Below, piece after piece: positions 38,782 through 46,038 of a stretch of 64,000 nt of DNA. Source of the stretch: Bulleidia sp. zg-1006 (GTDB taxonomy: Bacteria > Bacillota_I > Bacilli_A > Erysipelotrichales > Erysipelotrichaceae); the NCBI RefSeq assembly GCF_016812035.1, contig NZ_CP069178.1, forward strand, positions 248,001 to 312,000, given 5' to 3'. How positions within the stretch are numbered: position 1 is the first letter of the stretch; each line of letters opens with the position of its first letter. Under the pieces are notes generated by a model that worked only from the letters and a program-made list of their open reading frames with translations, ran no database searches and was not told the origin of the DNA. A program made the position numbers and the translations under genes.

Positions 38782-39497
38782 ATGAAAATTATTTTTTCTC
38801 CAAGCAAGAAAATGAAGATGGATGAAGATTTTCTTACTACCCAAAATCCTTTCTTCTTAAAAGAAGCGAATGAATTATTAGAAGCGATGAAATCATATTC
38901 CGATAAAGAAAGAAAAAAGATTTGGAATGTATCGGATGCTTTATTCCAAAGAACCAATCAAATGCTTTTAGAAACTAAATCGATGTCCGGTAAAACACCA
39001 GCTCTTTTTGCTTATCAAGGCTTAGCTTTCCAACATTTATCAGCGAATGCTTTAGGACAAAAGGAATTGGATTATTTAGAAGAACATTTGTGCATACTAT
39101 CCGCTATGTATGGTGTTTTAAAACCAATGGATGCGGTGGTTTCCTATCGTCTGGAGATGCAAGCTTTTCTGCCAAGTGGAAGTCTTTATTCCTATTGGAA
39201 AATAAATTAAAAGAGTACTTTCAACAGGAAGAAATTATTAATGTAGCTTCAAAAGAATACAGCGATACCCTTTTAAAAGACTATGATGGGAAAGTAACCC
39301 ATATCCTCTTTGGTCATTTAGAAAAAGGAAAACTTAAAACCAAAGGAACACTTGCGAAGATAGGAAGAGGCGACTTGATTTATTCCATGGCAGAAAGAAA
39401 AATCGAAGAAGTCAATAAATTAAGAAACAGCTTTGACCACTATTGGTATCGAGAAGATTTATCAGATGAAGAACACATTGTTTATTTATACGCATGA
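38782..39497 (+). pseudogene. yaaA: YaaA peroxide-stress protein gene with a frameshift
   Basis: The first frame gives MKIIFSPSKKMKMDEDF through SAMYGVLKPMDAVVSYRLEMQ and ends at 39210 in SLYSYWKIN. The rest of the protein continues in another frame (NKLKEYFQQEEIINVASKEYSDTLLK through GRGDLIYSMAERKIEE) to 39497. The break is near 39196-39206 in GGAAAATAAATT, where a one-base change restores the YaaA order. YaaA limits free iron and DNA damage under peroxide. It may be a recent mutation or a sequencing error; the rest looks well preserved. Confidence 0.85.
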
Positions 39498-39515: not shown

Positions 39516-39531
39516 AATTTCCTAGGAAATT
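39516..39531 (+). promoter_or_regulatory. 16-bp perfect palindrome, putative MarR-type operator
   Basis: AATTTCCTAGGAAATT is a perfect inverted repeat 28 bases before the ATG of the MarR-radical SAM gene. It lies upstream of a TAAAAT box (39546-39551), where binding would block RNA polymerase. Self-regulation by the encoded MarR domain is inferred. Confidence 0.55.
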
Positions 39532-39558
39532 TAACTATTTTTGATTAAAATAAATGTG

Positions 39559-40662
39559 ATGGAAGATAACTATTTATTAGCTTTGTCGTTGCTTTATCGA
39601 AACACTAAAAAGTACTTTGACCATAGTCTATCCCAATATAATTTGGGTTGGGGTCAAGTACTTCCTTTACTTATGGTCAATGAACACGCTGGTATTACCA
39701 TGCAAGAATTAACCCAAAGGTCGGTTGTGGATAAAGGAACAACCTCAAAGGTTGTACAAAACTTATTAGATAATGGCTATTTAAAAGTAAAAATTGATGA
39801 ACAAGACCGTCGTGTAAAACATCTTTACACCACTTCCAAAGCATCAGATATCATTAGCTCCATCTATCATTATCGTCAAGAATATGGACAAAGTCTTGCT
39901 AAAGACGTTGATTTTTCACATTTTTTAGAAGAGCTGACGATTGTGATGAAGAATTCAGAAGCGAATGATAAAGAGGAAGATAAAGATTTCCAATCCTTAC
40001 GCATTGGTAAATATAAAAATTTAGATTTAGGAAATTATCCCGATAAAGTAAGCGCCACTATTTATCTATCCGGTTGTAATTTAAAGTGTCCTTTTTGTAA
40101 TCAAAAAGATTTGGTTTTCTTGCCCCAAGAAGCGAATTTATTAGATGTTACAGAAGTTTTAGAAGATTTAAAATCCAGAACAATTTTTTTGGAAGCAGTT
40201 TGTATCAGTGGTGGAGAACCTTGTCAACAAGAAGCCCTTATTCCTTTCTTAGTAGAAATTAAAAAGTTAGGCTTATCGGTTAAATTAGAAACCAATGGTA
40301 CTTTTCCCTATGTGTTAGAAAGTCTTATACAAAGAAAACTAGTGGATTACATCCAACTTGATTGGAAAAATGCAAGTCGGAAAATACCGGAAACTGTTGG
40401 TTTGTTGGCAAGGGATGTTCCTATCCGGCGCATGAAAGAAAGCTTGAAATTGGTACAATGTTCGGGAATTCCCTATGAAATCCATACCACTTTAGTGAAA
40501 GCTTTCCATGGTAAAAAAGATGTAAAACAAATGTATAAAGAATTAGAAGGCGATAAGCATTGGAAGTTGTATCCATTTAGACAAAGCAATCAAGTGATTC
40601 AAAAAGACTTAGTGGAGTGGAGTGAAGAAGAATGGGAGAAGATAAGTCATGTGGAAAGTTAG
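39559..40662 (+). CDS. MarR-type DNA-binding domain fused to NrdG-like radical SAM enzyme
   Basis: A 367-residue fusion. Residues about 1-130 are a MarR winged helix (LGWGQVLPLLMVNEHAGITMQEL, TTSKVVQNLLDNGYLKVK and the wing DEQDRRVKHLYTT). A charged linker follows. Residues about 145-367 are a radical SAM domain of the NrdG2 type: NYPDKVSATIYLSGCNLKCPFCNQ with cluster Cys173, Cys177 and Cys180, then SGGEP and LETNGTFP. NrdG enzymes generate the glycyl radical of anaerobic ribonucleotide reductase. ATG 39559 is preferred: TAAAAT ends seven bases upstream (leaderless pattern), while TTG 39541 is also open. Overlaps the next gene by 14 bases. Confidence 0.85.
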   Translation: MEDNYLLALSLLYRNTKKYFDHSLSQYNLGWGQVLPLLMVNEHAGITMQELTQRSVVDKGTTSKVVQNLLDNGYLKVKIDEQDRRVKHLYTTSKASDIISSIYHYRQEYGQSLAKDVDFSHFLEELTIVMKNSEANDKEEDKDFQSLRIGKYKNLDLGNYPDKVSATIYLSGCNLKCPFCNQKDLVFLPQEANLLDVTEVLEDLKSRTIFLEAVCISGGEPCQQEALIPFLVEIKKLGLSVKLETNGTFPYVLESLIQRKLVDYIQLDWKNASRKIPETVGLLARDVPIRRMKESLKLVQCSGIPYEIHTTLVKAFHGKKDVKQMYKELEGDKHWKLYPFRQSNQVIQKDLVEWSEEEWEKISHVES

Positions 40663-42175
40663 AAAAAGAGATAATAGCTTAACCGAGTTTGAGGTAGATA
40701 AAATCAAAGTTGCCATTAAAAAAGCTTTTCATGGCTCGAAAAAAAGGGTTCCTTCTTCGGTATTAGATTTAATTGCGATACGAGCAGTGGCTGATTTTGA
40801 AGATAAAATTGCGGACGATGTGATTAGTGTTGAAGATATTCAAGACAGTGTGGAACATGTGTTAGCGGAATGTGGTTATTCCGAAGTGGCGAAAGCCTAT
40901 ATTTTATATCGCCGTGAACATGAACGCTTGCGTGAAATTGAAGAGGCGAACCATCAGTATTTAAAAGATATTGAACGCTATTTAGAGGGGAATCAAGAAA
41001 ATACCATTGGTGGTTTAATCTTAAATAACTCAGCTTCCTTAACCGAACTATATTGGTTAGAGGATATTTACGACCGTAGTATTCGAGAGGCGGTTCATAA
41101 AGGCACATTAGAAATCGGTGGTATGGAGATGATGGCTCCTTACGCTTGTATTTGGGATTTGAATTTACTATTAAAAAAAGGAATTTTGCCAGTGCAAGGA
41201 AAGGTAGGTACTTTACCAGCTAAACATTTAAGCACCGCTTGTTCACATATCACCAACTTTATCGGCATTATCCAAAATGAATGGGTGAGTGTACAAGGTT
41301 TTGAACACATAGATACCTTACTAGCTCCTTTTGTGCGTCAAGATGAATTAAGCTATGCTGAAATTAAACAATCGATTCAAACCCTGGTATATGGTTTAAA
41401 TGTTCCTTCTCGTTGGGGCGGAAAAGCTCCTTTTAGCCATTTTGCCTTTGATGGTCGTATTCCCGAAAAATTTATTCATCAAGAAGTGTTTATCGCTGGT
41501 AAGAAAATGACATTTGTTTATGGAGATTTAGAAAAAGAAGCGGGGAAAATCCGTCAAGCTTTCTATGAAGTTTTATTAGAAGGTGATGGCGAAGGAAAAC
41601 CATTTGCGTATCCATGGATAACAGTCAATTATTTGGAAGAGAAGGTGCTTGATTTATTAAAGAAAGACCAATGTTTATTTTGGCGAACAATGCCTCAAGA
41701 TGTGGATAGCCAAATGATTAGCGGCAAAGTGAGTATTTCATTTGACAAGGAAACTTGGAAAGAAAAATTGACCTTAGCTCATAAAGCTTTATTAACCCAA
41801 CAAATTATTCTTGATAAATTGACTGAAAATGGTCTGTATCCATATAGTAAAGCCTATGGTTTACCTGATAAAAAAATCGCGAAAATTTGTTGGAAGAATG
41901 TGTCGCTTGAACAAGCAACGGATTTAATAGAGCTATTGCAGGAAGAAAAAGAAGTCCTTGAAAAAGAAGGCATCTACATGGAATTTATTCCTGAAAAAGA
42001 AATAGATATTATGAAAGGTTTTGCTTTACAAGAAAAAACACAAAGTTTGGATGGTCTTGGGAAGCTACAATCCATCGATTTACCAGAAGAAATGAGTGAT
42101 AAGGATATTTTGCATTATCTATCAAAAATTCAAAAAACCTATCATCTACGTCTTCTTGGCTTCCATTTAAAGTGA
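40649..42175 (+). CDS. ATP-cone/NrdD-like protein without glycyl-radical domain (pseudo-ribonucleotide reductase)
   Basis: A 508-residue protein. Residues 1-90 are an ATP cone (KVRKRDNSLTEFEVDKIKVA). Then comes a recognisable NrdD barrel: HLSTACSHITNFIGIIQNEW (Cys198), EHIDTLLAPFVRQDELSYAE, NVPSRWGGKAPFSHFAFDGR. At the place of the NrdD finger loop RSMCCRL it reads SQMISGK (354-360), so the active-site cysteines are gone. It ends at 508 instead of about 650-750, with no CxxC zinc site and no R-x-x-GY glycyl motif. The next gene is convergent, so no lost piece follows. Catalysis is unlikely; nucleotide sensing or partnering with the fused activase is inferred. Confidence 0.8.
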   Translation: MWKVRKRDNSLTEFEVDKIKVAIKKAFHGSKKRVPSSVLDLIAIRAVADFEDKIADDVISVEDIQDSVEHVLAECGYSEVAKAYILYRREHERLREIEEANHQYLKDIERYLEGNQENTIGGLILNNSASLTELYWLEDIYDRSIREAVHKGTLEIGGMEMMAPYACIWDLNLLLKKGILPVQGKVGTLPAKHLSTACSHITNFIGIIQNEWVSVQGFEHIDTLLAPFVRQDELSYAEIKQSIQTLVYGLNVPSRWGGKAPFSHFAFDGRIPEKFIHQEVFIAGKKMTFVYGDLEKEAGKIRQAFYEVLLEGDGEGKPFAYPWITVNYLEEKVLDLLKKDQCLFWRTMPQDVDSQMISGKVSISFDKETWKEKLTLAHKALLTQQIILDKLTENGLYPYSKAYGLPDKKIAKICWKNVSLEQATDLIELLQEEKEVLEKEGIYMEFIPEKEIDIMKGFALQEKTQSLDGLGKLQSIDLPEEMSDKDILHYLSKIQKTYHLRLLGFHLK

Positions 42176-42916: not shown

Positions 42917-42952
42917 CTAGAAAACAAAAAGAAAGACAGCTAATCACTTTGT

Positions 42953-42980
42953 TTGACATATACCCCTATGGGTATATAGT
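42953..42980 (+). promoter_or_regulatory. copper-regulated promoter with CsoR operator
   Basis: TTGACA (42953-42958) and TATAGT (42975-42980), 16-base spacer. The spacer is an inverted repeat TATACCC-CTAT-GGGTATA (42959-42976), the classical CsoR-type site. Apo-CsoR would cover the promoter and copper would release it. Confidence 0.85.
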
Positions 42981-43002
42981 AATATCTATAAGAGGACCAT
43001 AT

Positions 43003-43296
43003 ATGAAATGTCACGCACACGAATATAAACAAAGAAGTGAAGCAGAAAAGAAGGCTTTATTAATGCGCTTGCATCGAATTGAAGGACAAATTAGAGGTAT
43101 TGAGAAGATGGTGGATGAGGATCAATATTGCCCTAATATTGTTATGCAAGTATCCGCTGTTTCATCAGCCTTAAATAGCTTTTCTAAAGAACTAATGGCA
43201 AGTCATATTCAAACTTGTGTAGTGGAAGATCTTCGTGAAGGAAATGAAGAAAGTATTCAAGAACTTGTGAAGATGATTCAAAAGTTAATGAAGTAG
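43003..43296 (+). CDS. csoR: copper-sensing repressor CsoR
   Basis: A 97-residue four-helix repressor. The Cu(I) ligands Cys43 (DQYCPNI), His68 and Cys72 (ASHIQTC) match CsoR, and the helix [16 protein letters not shown] is typical. ATG 43003 follows AGAGGA at normal distance; an upstream ATG at 42949 lies inside the operator and is not used. It controls the operon with copA and the HMA protein. Confidence 0.94.
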
Positions 43297-43304
43297 GAGG
43301 TTGT

Positions 43305-45797
43305 ATGGAAAATTATCAAGTAAAAGGGATGAGTTGTGCAGCTTGTCAAGCAACGGTTGAAAAAGCTGTTAAAAAAGTTCCGGGTGTTCAATCTTGTTCG
43401 GTTTCTTTATTGACTAATTCTATGGTGGTTGAAGGAAATGTTTCGCATCAAGATATTGAAAAAGCAGTGGAAAAAGCTGGCTATCAAGCTATTTCAAATA
43501 GTCATACAGATGTTAAAACAAAGGGGAATGAACTATCGGAAGAAGAAACGCCTAAGTTAATGAAACGCTTTGTACTATCGTTAGGGGTCATTTTAGTTTT
43601 AATGTATTTCAGTATGGGCTATATGATGTTTCATTGGCCTCTACCTTCTTTTTTCAATGAAAACTATATGGCTTTGGGTTTGGTGCAAGCCATTTTGGCA
43701 CTTGTGGTAATGGTGATTAATCGTTCTTTCTTCGTATCAGGATGGAAATCACTGATTCATTTAACACCAAATATGGATACCTTAGTTACCCTAGGCTCGG
43801 GGATTTCATACCTTTGGTCGATTGGTATTTTATTTCGCATGACAGTCACACCGACATTGGAACAAATGACTTTAGCGCATCATCAATATTATTTTGAATC
43901 AGCTGCGATGATTTTGGTTTTTATTGTCTTAGGGAAAACATTAGAAGCTTATTCCAAAGGAAAAACAACCAACGCTTTAAAATCTCTCATTCAACTAAGT
44001 CCAAATGAAGCTCGTTTGTTTATGAATGGGGAAGAAAAAATGGTTTCCATTGAAGAAGTAAAGGTCAATGATTGTATCTTAGTGAAGGCCGGTGAAAAGA
44101 TTGCTGTAGATGGTATTGTTTTACAGGGACAAGCAACGGTGGACGAGAGTGCTTTAACGGGTGAAAGCTTACCAGTAGATAAAAAGGAAGGGGATGTTGT
44201 CAAATCCGCAACCATCAATCGAACTGGATACATGGTCATTCGAGCCACGCAAGTGGGTAAGGATACCAGTTTGGCGCAAATTATTCAACTGGTGAAAGAA
44301 GCTTCCATGACAAAAGCTCCAATTGCTAAAATTGCGGATAAGATTTCCTCTATCTTTGTACCAACCATCTTAGTAATTTCACTTCTCGTGTTCTTTATTT
44401 GGTTCATTTGGACTAAGGATGTTAGCTTATCCATGCAACATGCCGTATCGGTCATGGTGATTGCTTGTCCATGTGCCCTTGGTCTAGCAACGCCAGTAGC
44501 GATTATGGTGGGTAGTGGTGTTGGTTTCCAAAATGGCTTATTGTTTAAAACTTCTGAATCCTTGGAAGAAATGAGTAAGATGGATATTATTGCTTTGGAT
44601 AAGACAGGAACAATCACTAAAGGACAGCCACAAGTGGTAGAGGTCTTTGAAGAAAACTCTGAATTATGGTCACTTGCGTACGCCTTAGAAGCAAAAAGTG
44701 AACATCCTTTTGCGAAAGCCATTGTCGAAAAAGCACGTGAAAAAAAGATAAATTTACAAGAGGTGGAACAATTTAAAACCGTCGTTGGGCATGGCTTAAA
44801 AGCTTATGTGAAGGGCAAAGAGATTGTGGGTGGTTCTTATAGTTATATTTCTTCTTTGACTTCATTGAGTGAAACACAAAAAGAAGATTTGGAAGTACAA
44901 GCTAAGATGGGTAGAACGCCATTATTGTTCATACAAAATGGAATGTATCTAGGATCTATTATTGTAGCTGATCCAATCAAAGAAGATTCTAAGCAGGCTA
45001 TTAAAATCCTACAACAATCCGGTCGTGAAGTGGTGATGATTACAGGCGATCAAGAAGCTACCGCACAAGCAATTGGTAAGCAAGCCGGTGTTCAACACGT
45101 AATTTCAGGCGTTTTACCAGATGAAAAAGAACAAGTTATTTCTTGGCTAAAGCGGTTTGGGAAAGTGGCGATGGTTGGTGATGGTATTAACGATGCACCA
45201 GCTTTAACGGACGCAAATTTAGGCTTAGCAATTGGAGCCGGTACGGATGTAGCGATAGATGCGGCGGATATTGTGTTAAGCCAATCGCATTTATCAGAAG
45301 TGGTACAAGCTATTTATTTAAGTGAAAAGACAGTCCAAACCATCCATGAAAATTTATTTTGGGCTTTTATATATAATTTGGTGTTAGTGCCATCCGCAGC
45401 AGGATTTATTCCCGGAGTTGCGATTGAACCAATGTGGGCTGCAGCAGCTATGGCATTAAGCTCTGTCACTGTGGTATTAAATGCCTTAAGATTAAATTAT
45501 GTTAGGATTACCCGTCAGCCGAAGAATAAGAAAAGAGTAGAGGTTCAATGGATGGAATGGAAAAGAAAGAAGGAAAGTAAAATGAAAAAGATTGTAAAAG
45601 TAGAAGGTATGATGTGTGAACATTGTGAAATGAGCGTTAAGAAAGCCTTGGAAAAAATTGATGGAGTAGAAAGCGCTGTTGTATCTCATGAAAAAGGGAT
45701 TGCAGAGGTATCTTTATCAAAGGATGTTCCGAGTGAAGCCTTTCAAAAGGCAATTGAAGAAAAGGAGTATGAGTTCAAAGGAGTGGAAAATGTTTAA
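43305..45797 (+). CDS. copA: Cu(I)-exporting P1B ATPase with N- and C-terminal HMA domains
   Basis: An 830-residue copper pump. Order: N-terminal HMA (GMSCAACQ, Cys11 and Cys14), eight membrane segments with CPC (388-390), phosphorylated Asp432 in [16 protein letters not shown], and [10 protein letters not shown], as in CopA. A second HMA domain is fused at the C terminus (760-830, GMMCEHCEM). This arrangement is unusual. Met760 has its own ribosome-binding site (AAGGAAAG at 45570-45577, seven-base spacing), so the tail may also be made alone as a CopZ-like chaperone. Copper repression through csoR is likely. Confidence 0.93.
45582..45797 (+). CDS. possible internally initiated CopZ-like copper chaperone (in-frame end of copA)
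   Basis: In the same frame as copA, ATG 45582 follows AAGGAAAG by seven bases and encodes 71 residues starting [19 protein letters not shown]. This is a complete HMA domain with a proper CopZ-like beginning. E. coli makes a free chaperone from copA by frameshifting; here an internal start would do the same. Existence as a separate protein is inferred. Confidence 0.45.
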
Positions 45798-46038
45798 GAC
45801 AACCATTCAAATAGAGGGAATGGCTTGTTCAATGTGTGAAAGCCATATTCAAGATGCACTTCGTCGTTTAGGATCTGTTTCAAAGGTTAAAGCAAGTCGA
45901 AAAAAGAAAGAAGCTTGTTTTGTCTCAGAAGAAGCGTTGGATCCAAAGTTAATTCAAAAGGCAATTGAAGATTCGGGCTATGAGTTCAAGGGTATTTCAA
46001 CAAAGGTGTATGAAAAGAAAAAACTTTGGTTCTTTTAG
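45790..46038 (+). CDS. HMA-domain metallochaperone-like protein
   Basis: An 82-residue HMA protein starting [20 protein letters not shown] with copper-binding Cys pair CSMC. ATG 45790 overlaps the copA stop (ATGTTTAA) and follows AAAGGAGTGG, so it is coupled to copA. The tail KKKLWFF is unusual. It is the third HMA domain in the operon and its sequence differs from the other two, so it may serve a different donor step. Confidence 0.8.

Follow-up and report, generated by a model that had tools for sequence, protein, structure and literature searches.

A MarR-radical SAM fusion and an NrdD-like pseudoenzyme as a candidate regulatory pair for class III ribonucleotide reductase genes in Bulleidia and its relatives

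Background

NrdR has been called the universal repressor of ribonucleotide reductase genes in bacteria (PMC12051234), and in the literature the ATP cone is described as essentially restricted to reductases and NrdR. Here we analysed a 64,000-nucleotide stretch (the window; G000:C1:248001-312000) of the complete 1.55-Mb genome of Bulleidia sp. zg-1006, in which the gene for a MarR-NrdG2 fusion protein overlaps that for a short NrdD2-like protein. Like NrdR, this system includes a candidate repressor of reductase genes, an ATP cone and palindromic sites at nrdDG promoters, and the regulator's own gene is often a putative target (PMC9110341). Unlike NrdR, it has no Zn ribbon: a MarR helix would read the DNA, a radical-SAM domain is fused to the DNA-binding domain, the cone lies on a separate, dead NrdD, and the site is one 18-bp palindrome instead of the paired NrdR boxes. 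The fusion system resembles NrdR in its working and is not a member of the NrdR family.

Three other described systems come close. With NrdG2 (TIGR02495) activases the fusion shares a domain scoring above the family cut-off, the CxxxCxxC motif and a position beside an NrdD2 gene, but it carries an N-terminal MarR domain, its partner has no glycine to activate, and often there is no partner gene. It has the winged helix of MarR-family one-component repressors and a palindromic candidate operator at target promoters and, clearly in relatives but in degenerate form in the window, beside its own gene; unlike them, it has a C-terminal radical-SAM domain, a putative sensor, and is encoded with a pseudoenzyme. 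The short NrdD has the ATP cone and N-terminal barrel half of PRK08270-type class III NrdDs (NrdD2, with a C-terminal glutaredoxin-like domain), to which it is 44-47% identical over residues 1-330, but it lacks their finger-loop cysteine, Zn site, glycyl loop and redoxin domain and, in the window, also their HxHD motif. No precedent for a MarR-NrdG fusion or a MarR/NrdG reductase regulator was found in a search of the open-access literature.

Results

The fusion and the short NrdD in the window genome

Profile searches place the MarR domain of the fusion above cut-off (MarR_2 PF12802, 37.1 bits against 27; PF01047, 36 against 24.6) and its NrdG2 domain above the equivalog cut-off (TIGR02495, 168 bits against 131). 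The SGGEP motif is present, and the NrdG2 half retains its radical-SAM residues. Sequence and scores thus agree with the preliminary description of this DNA, which had seen a MarR winged helix joined to an NrdG-type domain with Cys173, Cys177, Cys180 and GGEP; the 14-base gene overlap that it reported is evident from the ORF coordinates (Table 1).

Table 1. Features of the fusion-short NrdD locus, in window positions
Feature	Position	Strand	Details
Candidate operator at the fusion gene's own promoter	39516..39537	+	palindrome AATTTCCTAGGAAATT (39516-39531) running into TAGGAAATTTAACTA (39523-39537)
MarR-NrdG2 fusion gene	39559..40662	+	367 aa from ATG 39559; 81% identical ortholog in G046
MarR winged-helix region, ~residues 1-140	39559..39978	+	DNA-reading helix VDKGTTSKVVQNL
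NrdG2-type radical-SAM domain, residues 149-333	40003..40557	+	TIGR02495 match
CxxxCxxC [4Fe-4S] motif, Cys173/Cys177/Cys180	40075..40098	+	sequence CNLKCPFC
Overlap of fusion and short NrdD genes, 14 bp	40649..40662	+	ORF coordinates
Short NrdD2-like pseudoenzyme, 508 aa	40649..42175	+	ORF and profile matches; 511-aa ortholog in G046
ATP cone, residues 1-92	40649..40924	+	89% of positions invariant in active homologs kept
NrdD2 barrel remnant, ~residues 96-333	40934..41647	+	HxHD motif lost (EIGG)
MISGK, residues 356-360, near deleted finger-loop cysteine (MCCRLR) segment	41714..41728	+	

The short NrdD has an ATP cone well above cut-off (PF03477, 74 bits against 25.8). Its match to NRDD (PF13597) reaches 150 bits against a cut-off of 26.2, but only over profile positions 4-213 of 562, and full-length NrdD models stay below cut-off (PRK08270, 327 against 548; TIGR02487, 103 against 326). 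The finger-loop radical cysteine, the C-terminal Zn site and the RxxGY glycyl loop are all missing from this protein, which ends at 508 aa. The earlier reading of an ATP cone plus NrdD barrel with MISGK at the finger-loop position, a stop at 508 residues and no C-terminal zinc or glycyl site was therefore correct. With the glycyl domain gone, there is no activatable glycine in the NrdD adjacent to the fusion's NrdG2 domain. The HxHD substrate-triphosphate motif has been lost as well (EIGG); most other degenerate forms keep it. Of the residues that do not vary among active NrdD2s, this protein has kept 89% within the cone, 50% and 46% within the two barrel parts and 25% within the last part. 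Since HxHD is gone, the cone appears to be the best-supported nucleotide site. In the cone of P. copri NrdD, Lys7, Arg8, Arg87 and Arg91 are located at the triphosphates (PMC11226230), and the short NrdD keeps a KR and a YR motif where the cone begins and ends in the same way (K6, R7, R88; matched by motif, not structure). A whole-genome search found the ATP cone in only two proteins, the pseudoenzyme and the canonical NrdD. Single-sequence structure prediction was unusable (pLDDT 35-37).

Both proteins have orthologs of 81% identity in the sister species G046, where the short NrdD is 511 aa long, and the most conserved part between the two genomes is the ATP cone (90% identity). Between the window and G046, dN/dS was 0.075 for the fusion, 0.073 for the short NrdD, 0.083 for the neighbouring CopA and 0.025 for the canonical NrdD, these ratios being approximate with synonymous sites near saturation. 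By this measure the short NrdD is under purifying selection, though it is without every catalytic feature. The G046 ortholog and the dN/dS ratios rule out a truncation artefact or decay in one strain; the concern that only this strain might be truncated is answered by that ortholog and by degenerate NrdD2s elsewhere.

Two neighbouring loci were also noted. A YaaA-like gene at 38782-39497 is broken into overlapping frames of 142 and 135 aa in the window and is a single 238-aa ORF in G046 (L034 10068-10784); the split is a frameshift or a sequencing error. On the other side, a copper-type cluster (CsoR-like, CopA-like ATPase and metal-binding domain ORFs; 42949-46038) adjoins the pair, likewise in G046.

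Fusions and NrdD2 partners among relatives

Fusions occur in the family to which the window belongs, in another family of the same order and in at least one further family of the class. Most further NrdG2 matches across the class have no MarR domain; a scan of a contig collection matched only two distant archaeal NrdDs. The fusion's usual place in relatives is before an intact PRK08270-type NrdD2. Finger-loop MCC, HxHD, three aligned Zn-site cysteines and RITGY each occur in 26/26 of these intact proteins, and the C-terminal glutaredoxin-like domain in 25/26. The finger-loop cysteine, present in every active NrdD2, is absent from all 7 short and all 8 intermediate forms. In the eight intermediates the redoxin domain and the finger-loop cysteines are gone and the Zn cysteines and the glycine remain, with RIAGN for RxxGY in G005 and G069 and KVAGY in G070. 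The seven short forms (508-647 aa, those of the window and G046 included) have lost finger-loop cysteines, redoxin domain, Zn site and glycine alike. In G012, G024 and G042 (L043, L051 and L040) the NrdD2 keeps the Zn site and a RITGY/RISGY glycine and has no finger-loop cysteine; here a glycyl radical might form without a thiyl acceptor.

Eleven genomes (G011, G017, G064, G004, G018, G041, G052, G032, G030, G045 and G084) carry the fusion alone, with its MarR helix and all three cysteines retained; any intact NrdD2 in them is encoded at another place, as a rule next to a separate NrdG2 that has no MarR domain. The three Fe-S cysteines are kept in 37/37 fusions with active partners, 11/11 stand-alone fusions and 7/7 with short partners; among the eight with intermediate partners, one (G082) has lost two of the three. 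This G082 fusion (L052/L247; GGDNFRCPYY) still has a near-perfect operator upstream and represents a natural cluster-less variant.

The preliminary description had coupled the fusion specifically to a dead NrdD and asked whether the two always travel together. This held in one direction only. Degenerate NrdD2s lie directly behind a MarR-NrdG2 fusion in 15/15 cases, and a lack of co-occurrence is thus not what we see, but the fusion itself is most often followed by an intact glycyl-radical NrdD2, and in other genomes it has no NrdD2 behind it.

In the fusion-protein tree, dead and intermediate partners fall in several places and imply at least four changes, a count for which the partner state of a few deep "active" entries (e.g., G358, G424, G485) was taken unchecked and that of G028 is uncertain. 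A single clade of degenerate-partner fusions is rejected (AU test, p=2.7e-10). The NrdD2 tree alone groups all degenerate forms together; given their separation in the fusion tree and the outcome of the AU test, this grouping is probably long-branch attraction. A single ancient dead NrdD is ruled out by the same tree and test, and in at least four lineages a degenerate NrdD2 appears to have arisen behind the fusion.

A candidate operator at canonical nrdD

The window genome has a canonical class III operon in which nrdD (732 aa, glycyl loop RTCGY; PRK09263, 933 bits against 657) is followed directly by nrdG (171 bits against 126) and then by a flavodoxin-like gene. A near-perfect palindrome, TAGTTGGAAATCCAACTA, lies upstream of fusion genes with intact partners, and a scan of 100 genomes located it also just upstream of canonical nrdD. 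The core common to the families is the 18-bp palindrome TAGTTG-N6-CAACTA. In the window genome the site reads TAGTTGCATACGCAACTA (C1:318454-318471), lies about 29 bp before the nrdD start and is contained in a longer, 24-bp palindrome, AATTAGTTGCATACGCAACTAATT; its counterpart in G046 is AATTAGTTGCGTACGCAACTAATT. The six short-NrdD genomes that have a canonical nrdD (G000, G046, G047, G059, G060 and G090) each contain the exact site once, always at the canonical nrdD promoter; composition predicts 0.18 occurrences in the 1.55 Mb of G000, where one is observed.

The palindrome at nrdDG promoters, tracking the presence of the fusion, is new here. It occurs at the nrdD promoter in 15/16 genomes with the fusion vs. 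3/21 without (Fisher p=1.3e-6) and, in the second family alone, in 6/7 vs. 0/14 (p=1.3e-4), in a set of genomes picked by fusion state and not randomly. The association partly follows phylogeny. Among 15 distinct nrdD-upstream sequences (G000 included), that of G104 has one mismatch, G107 has the fusion and no site at nrdD, and the rest are exact. The exact matches inspected in fusion-less genomes were mostly within coding sequence. Where promoter elements are readable, the nrdD sites adjoin or overlap the -10 element: they follow closely after a -10-like TATAAT or fall between the -35 and -10 elements, the placement expected for a repressor.

Further sites precede an ~850-aa ATP-cone reductase in G003 and G012. 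In stand-alone-fusion genomes without canonical nrdD the site precedes the solo-activase NrdD2, several with 1-3 mismatches and some with none. The leaders of such nrdD2 genes (L265, L267, L268, L179, L180, L106 and L274) run ~200 nt from operator to start and contain a conserved inverted repeat like GTTTCGTG...CACGAAACATTTTAT. A search of the NrdD2 leaders against Rfam gave no match, and the repeat is possibly the site of a second regulator or a leader RNA. An exact palindrome also occurs at a MarR-like ORF of uncertain start (L293, G076:C37:98132) in a genome that has neither the fusion nor a canonical NrdD.

In several families the fusion gene itself is preceded by the same site as nrdD, which is clear in relatives. 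The window's own-promoter palindrome differs by 2-3 mismatches from the relatives' TAGGAAATCCAACTA / TTGGAAATCCAACTA sites at the same place; it is degenerate, and weak for this genome. As a genome-wide operator AATTTCCTAGGAAATT was rejected, being unique at 0 mismatches with its remaining matches at control level. Most other fusions with a degenerate partner have no such site left upstream either, and autoregulation may therefore have relaxed in the window and these other lineages.

NrdR

TIGR00244, the NrdR model, scored below cut-off in the window genome and in 90/90 relatives (the control was positive in 9/14 known genomes); the matches listed were weak, covered the ATP-cone part and were mostly NrdDs. 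NrdR is missing from fusion-less relatives too, so the fusion did not simply replace NrdR everywhere.

Discussion

Our main reading, to which we give a probability of roughly 60%, is that the fusion acts as a MarR-type repressor of a ribonucleotide reductase regulon, with the dead NrdD as its likely ATP/dATP-reading partner and the pair as a functional stand-in for NrdR. The MarR half would bind the palindrome overlapping the canonical nrdDG promoter and so repress nrdDG. As far as sequence comparison can carry it, a reductase regulon of the fusion is well supported, and so is the predicted binding to TAGTTG-N6-CAACTA with repression of nrdDG, for which site conservation and co-occurrence argue. 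The NrdG2 half, ancestrally the activase of an adjacent NrdD2, would serve as a sensory or coupling domain with its [4Fe-4S]/SAM site, since the three cysteines are kept across active-partner, stand-alone and short-partner fusions. The NrdD2 partner in the window genome would be a pseudoenzyme in which no glycyl or thiyl radical could form and which keeps a nucleotide-binding cone. ATP or dATP in this cone would alter the dead NrdD's hold on the NrdG2 half and, through it, how tightly the MarR half binds the nrdDG operator. That the short NrdD probably feeds the ATP/dATP state to the fusion is suggested by the conserved cone, the gene overlap and the co-retention of the pair. The preliminary description had proposed a regulatory device, not a reductase, and the lost catalytic features, the purifying selection and the MarR-type operator at reductase promoters all favour that view; its cone reading dATP/ATP and Fe-S centre reading redox are consistent with what is conserved. 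From these patterns we infer binding, repression, nucleotide and redox sensing and physical interaction of the pair.

The stand-alone fusions count against the main reading, as they show that some lineages can do without the pseudo-NrdD. They suggest instead that the fusion alone might repress the reductase genes, responding to Fe-S/SAM or redox state through its NrdG2 half, with the short NrdD a vestige or structural stabiliser and no nucleotide sensor. Many genomes have such fusions with intact cysteines, and in one of them, G045, a search for an ATP-cone protein found none. We nevertheless think this unlikely for the window lineage, in which purifying selection acts on the short NrdD as much as on the fusion and the cone is the best-conserved part; gene order and overlap are kept, and at least four lineages have independently kept a dead NrdD behind the fusion.

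Much less probable is a fusion that regulates its own gene and has remained the activase of some glycyl radical enzyme, be it canonical NrdD or a different one, with the short NrdD modulating canonical NrdD through ATP-cone mixed oligomers. The equivalog-level score and retained radical-SAM residues of the NrdG2 domain would fit an activase, but an nrdG of its own follows canonical nrdD immediately, the glycine site cognate to the fusion has been lost, and the operator at nrdDG would be left unexplained. That operator might also belong to another MarR regulator, the link to the fusion being phylogenetic coincidence and the short NrdD a slowly decaying pseudogene. Three genomes from the window's genus, all of them drafts (G022, G058 and G068), indeed have sites with no fusion detected; the sites are weaker in G058 and G068, and in G022 an exact operator stands at canonical nrdD (L183 / G022:C13:53053) in a 97%-complete draft. 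Against this, the same site precedes the fusion gene across families, the association holds within the second family, and two intact ORFs at a dN/dS of 0.07 are not decay; we consider this account highly doubtful as well.

More broadly, it is conceivable, at somewhat less than even odds, that an activase and its reductase have repeatedly become a transcription switch, in which the dead NrdD reads ATP/dATP, nucleotide and Fe-S/redox state are passed on by the activase half, and the working reductase genes are repressed by the MarR half. If the repressor reading is true, a MarR-radical-SAM fusion that controls a regulon would provide another means of coupling dNTP supply to transcription, unrelated to NrdR's solution. 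The repurposing of a radical-SAM enzyme and a reductase as sensors would then be an unusual case of enzymes turned regulators, in repeated and traceable steps. With operator, target and partner now named, the question is directly testable by DNA-binding assays.
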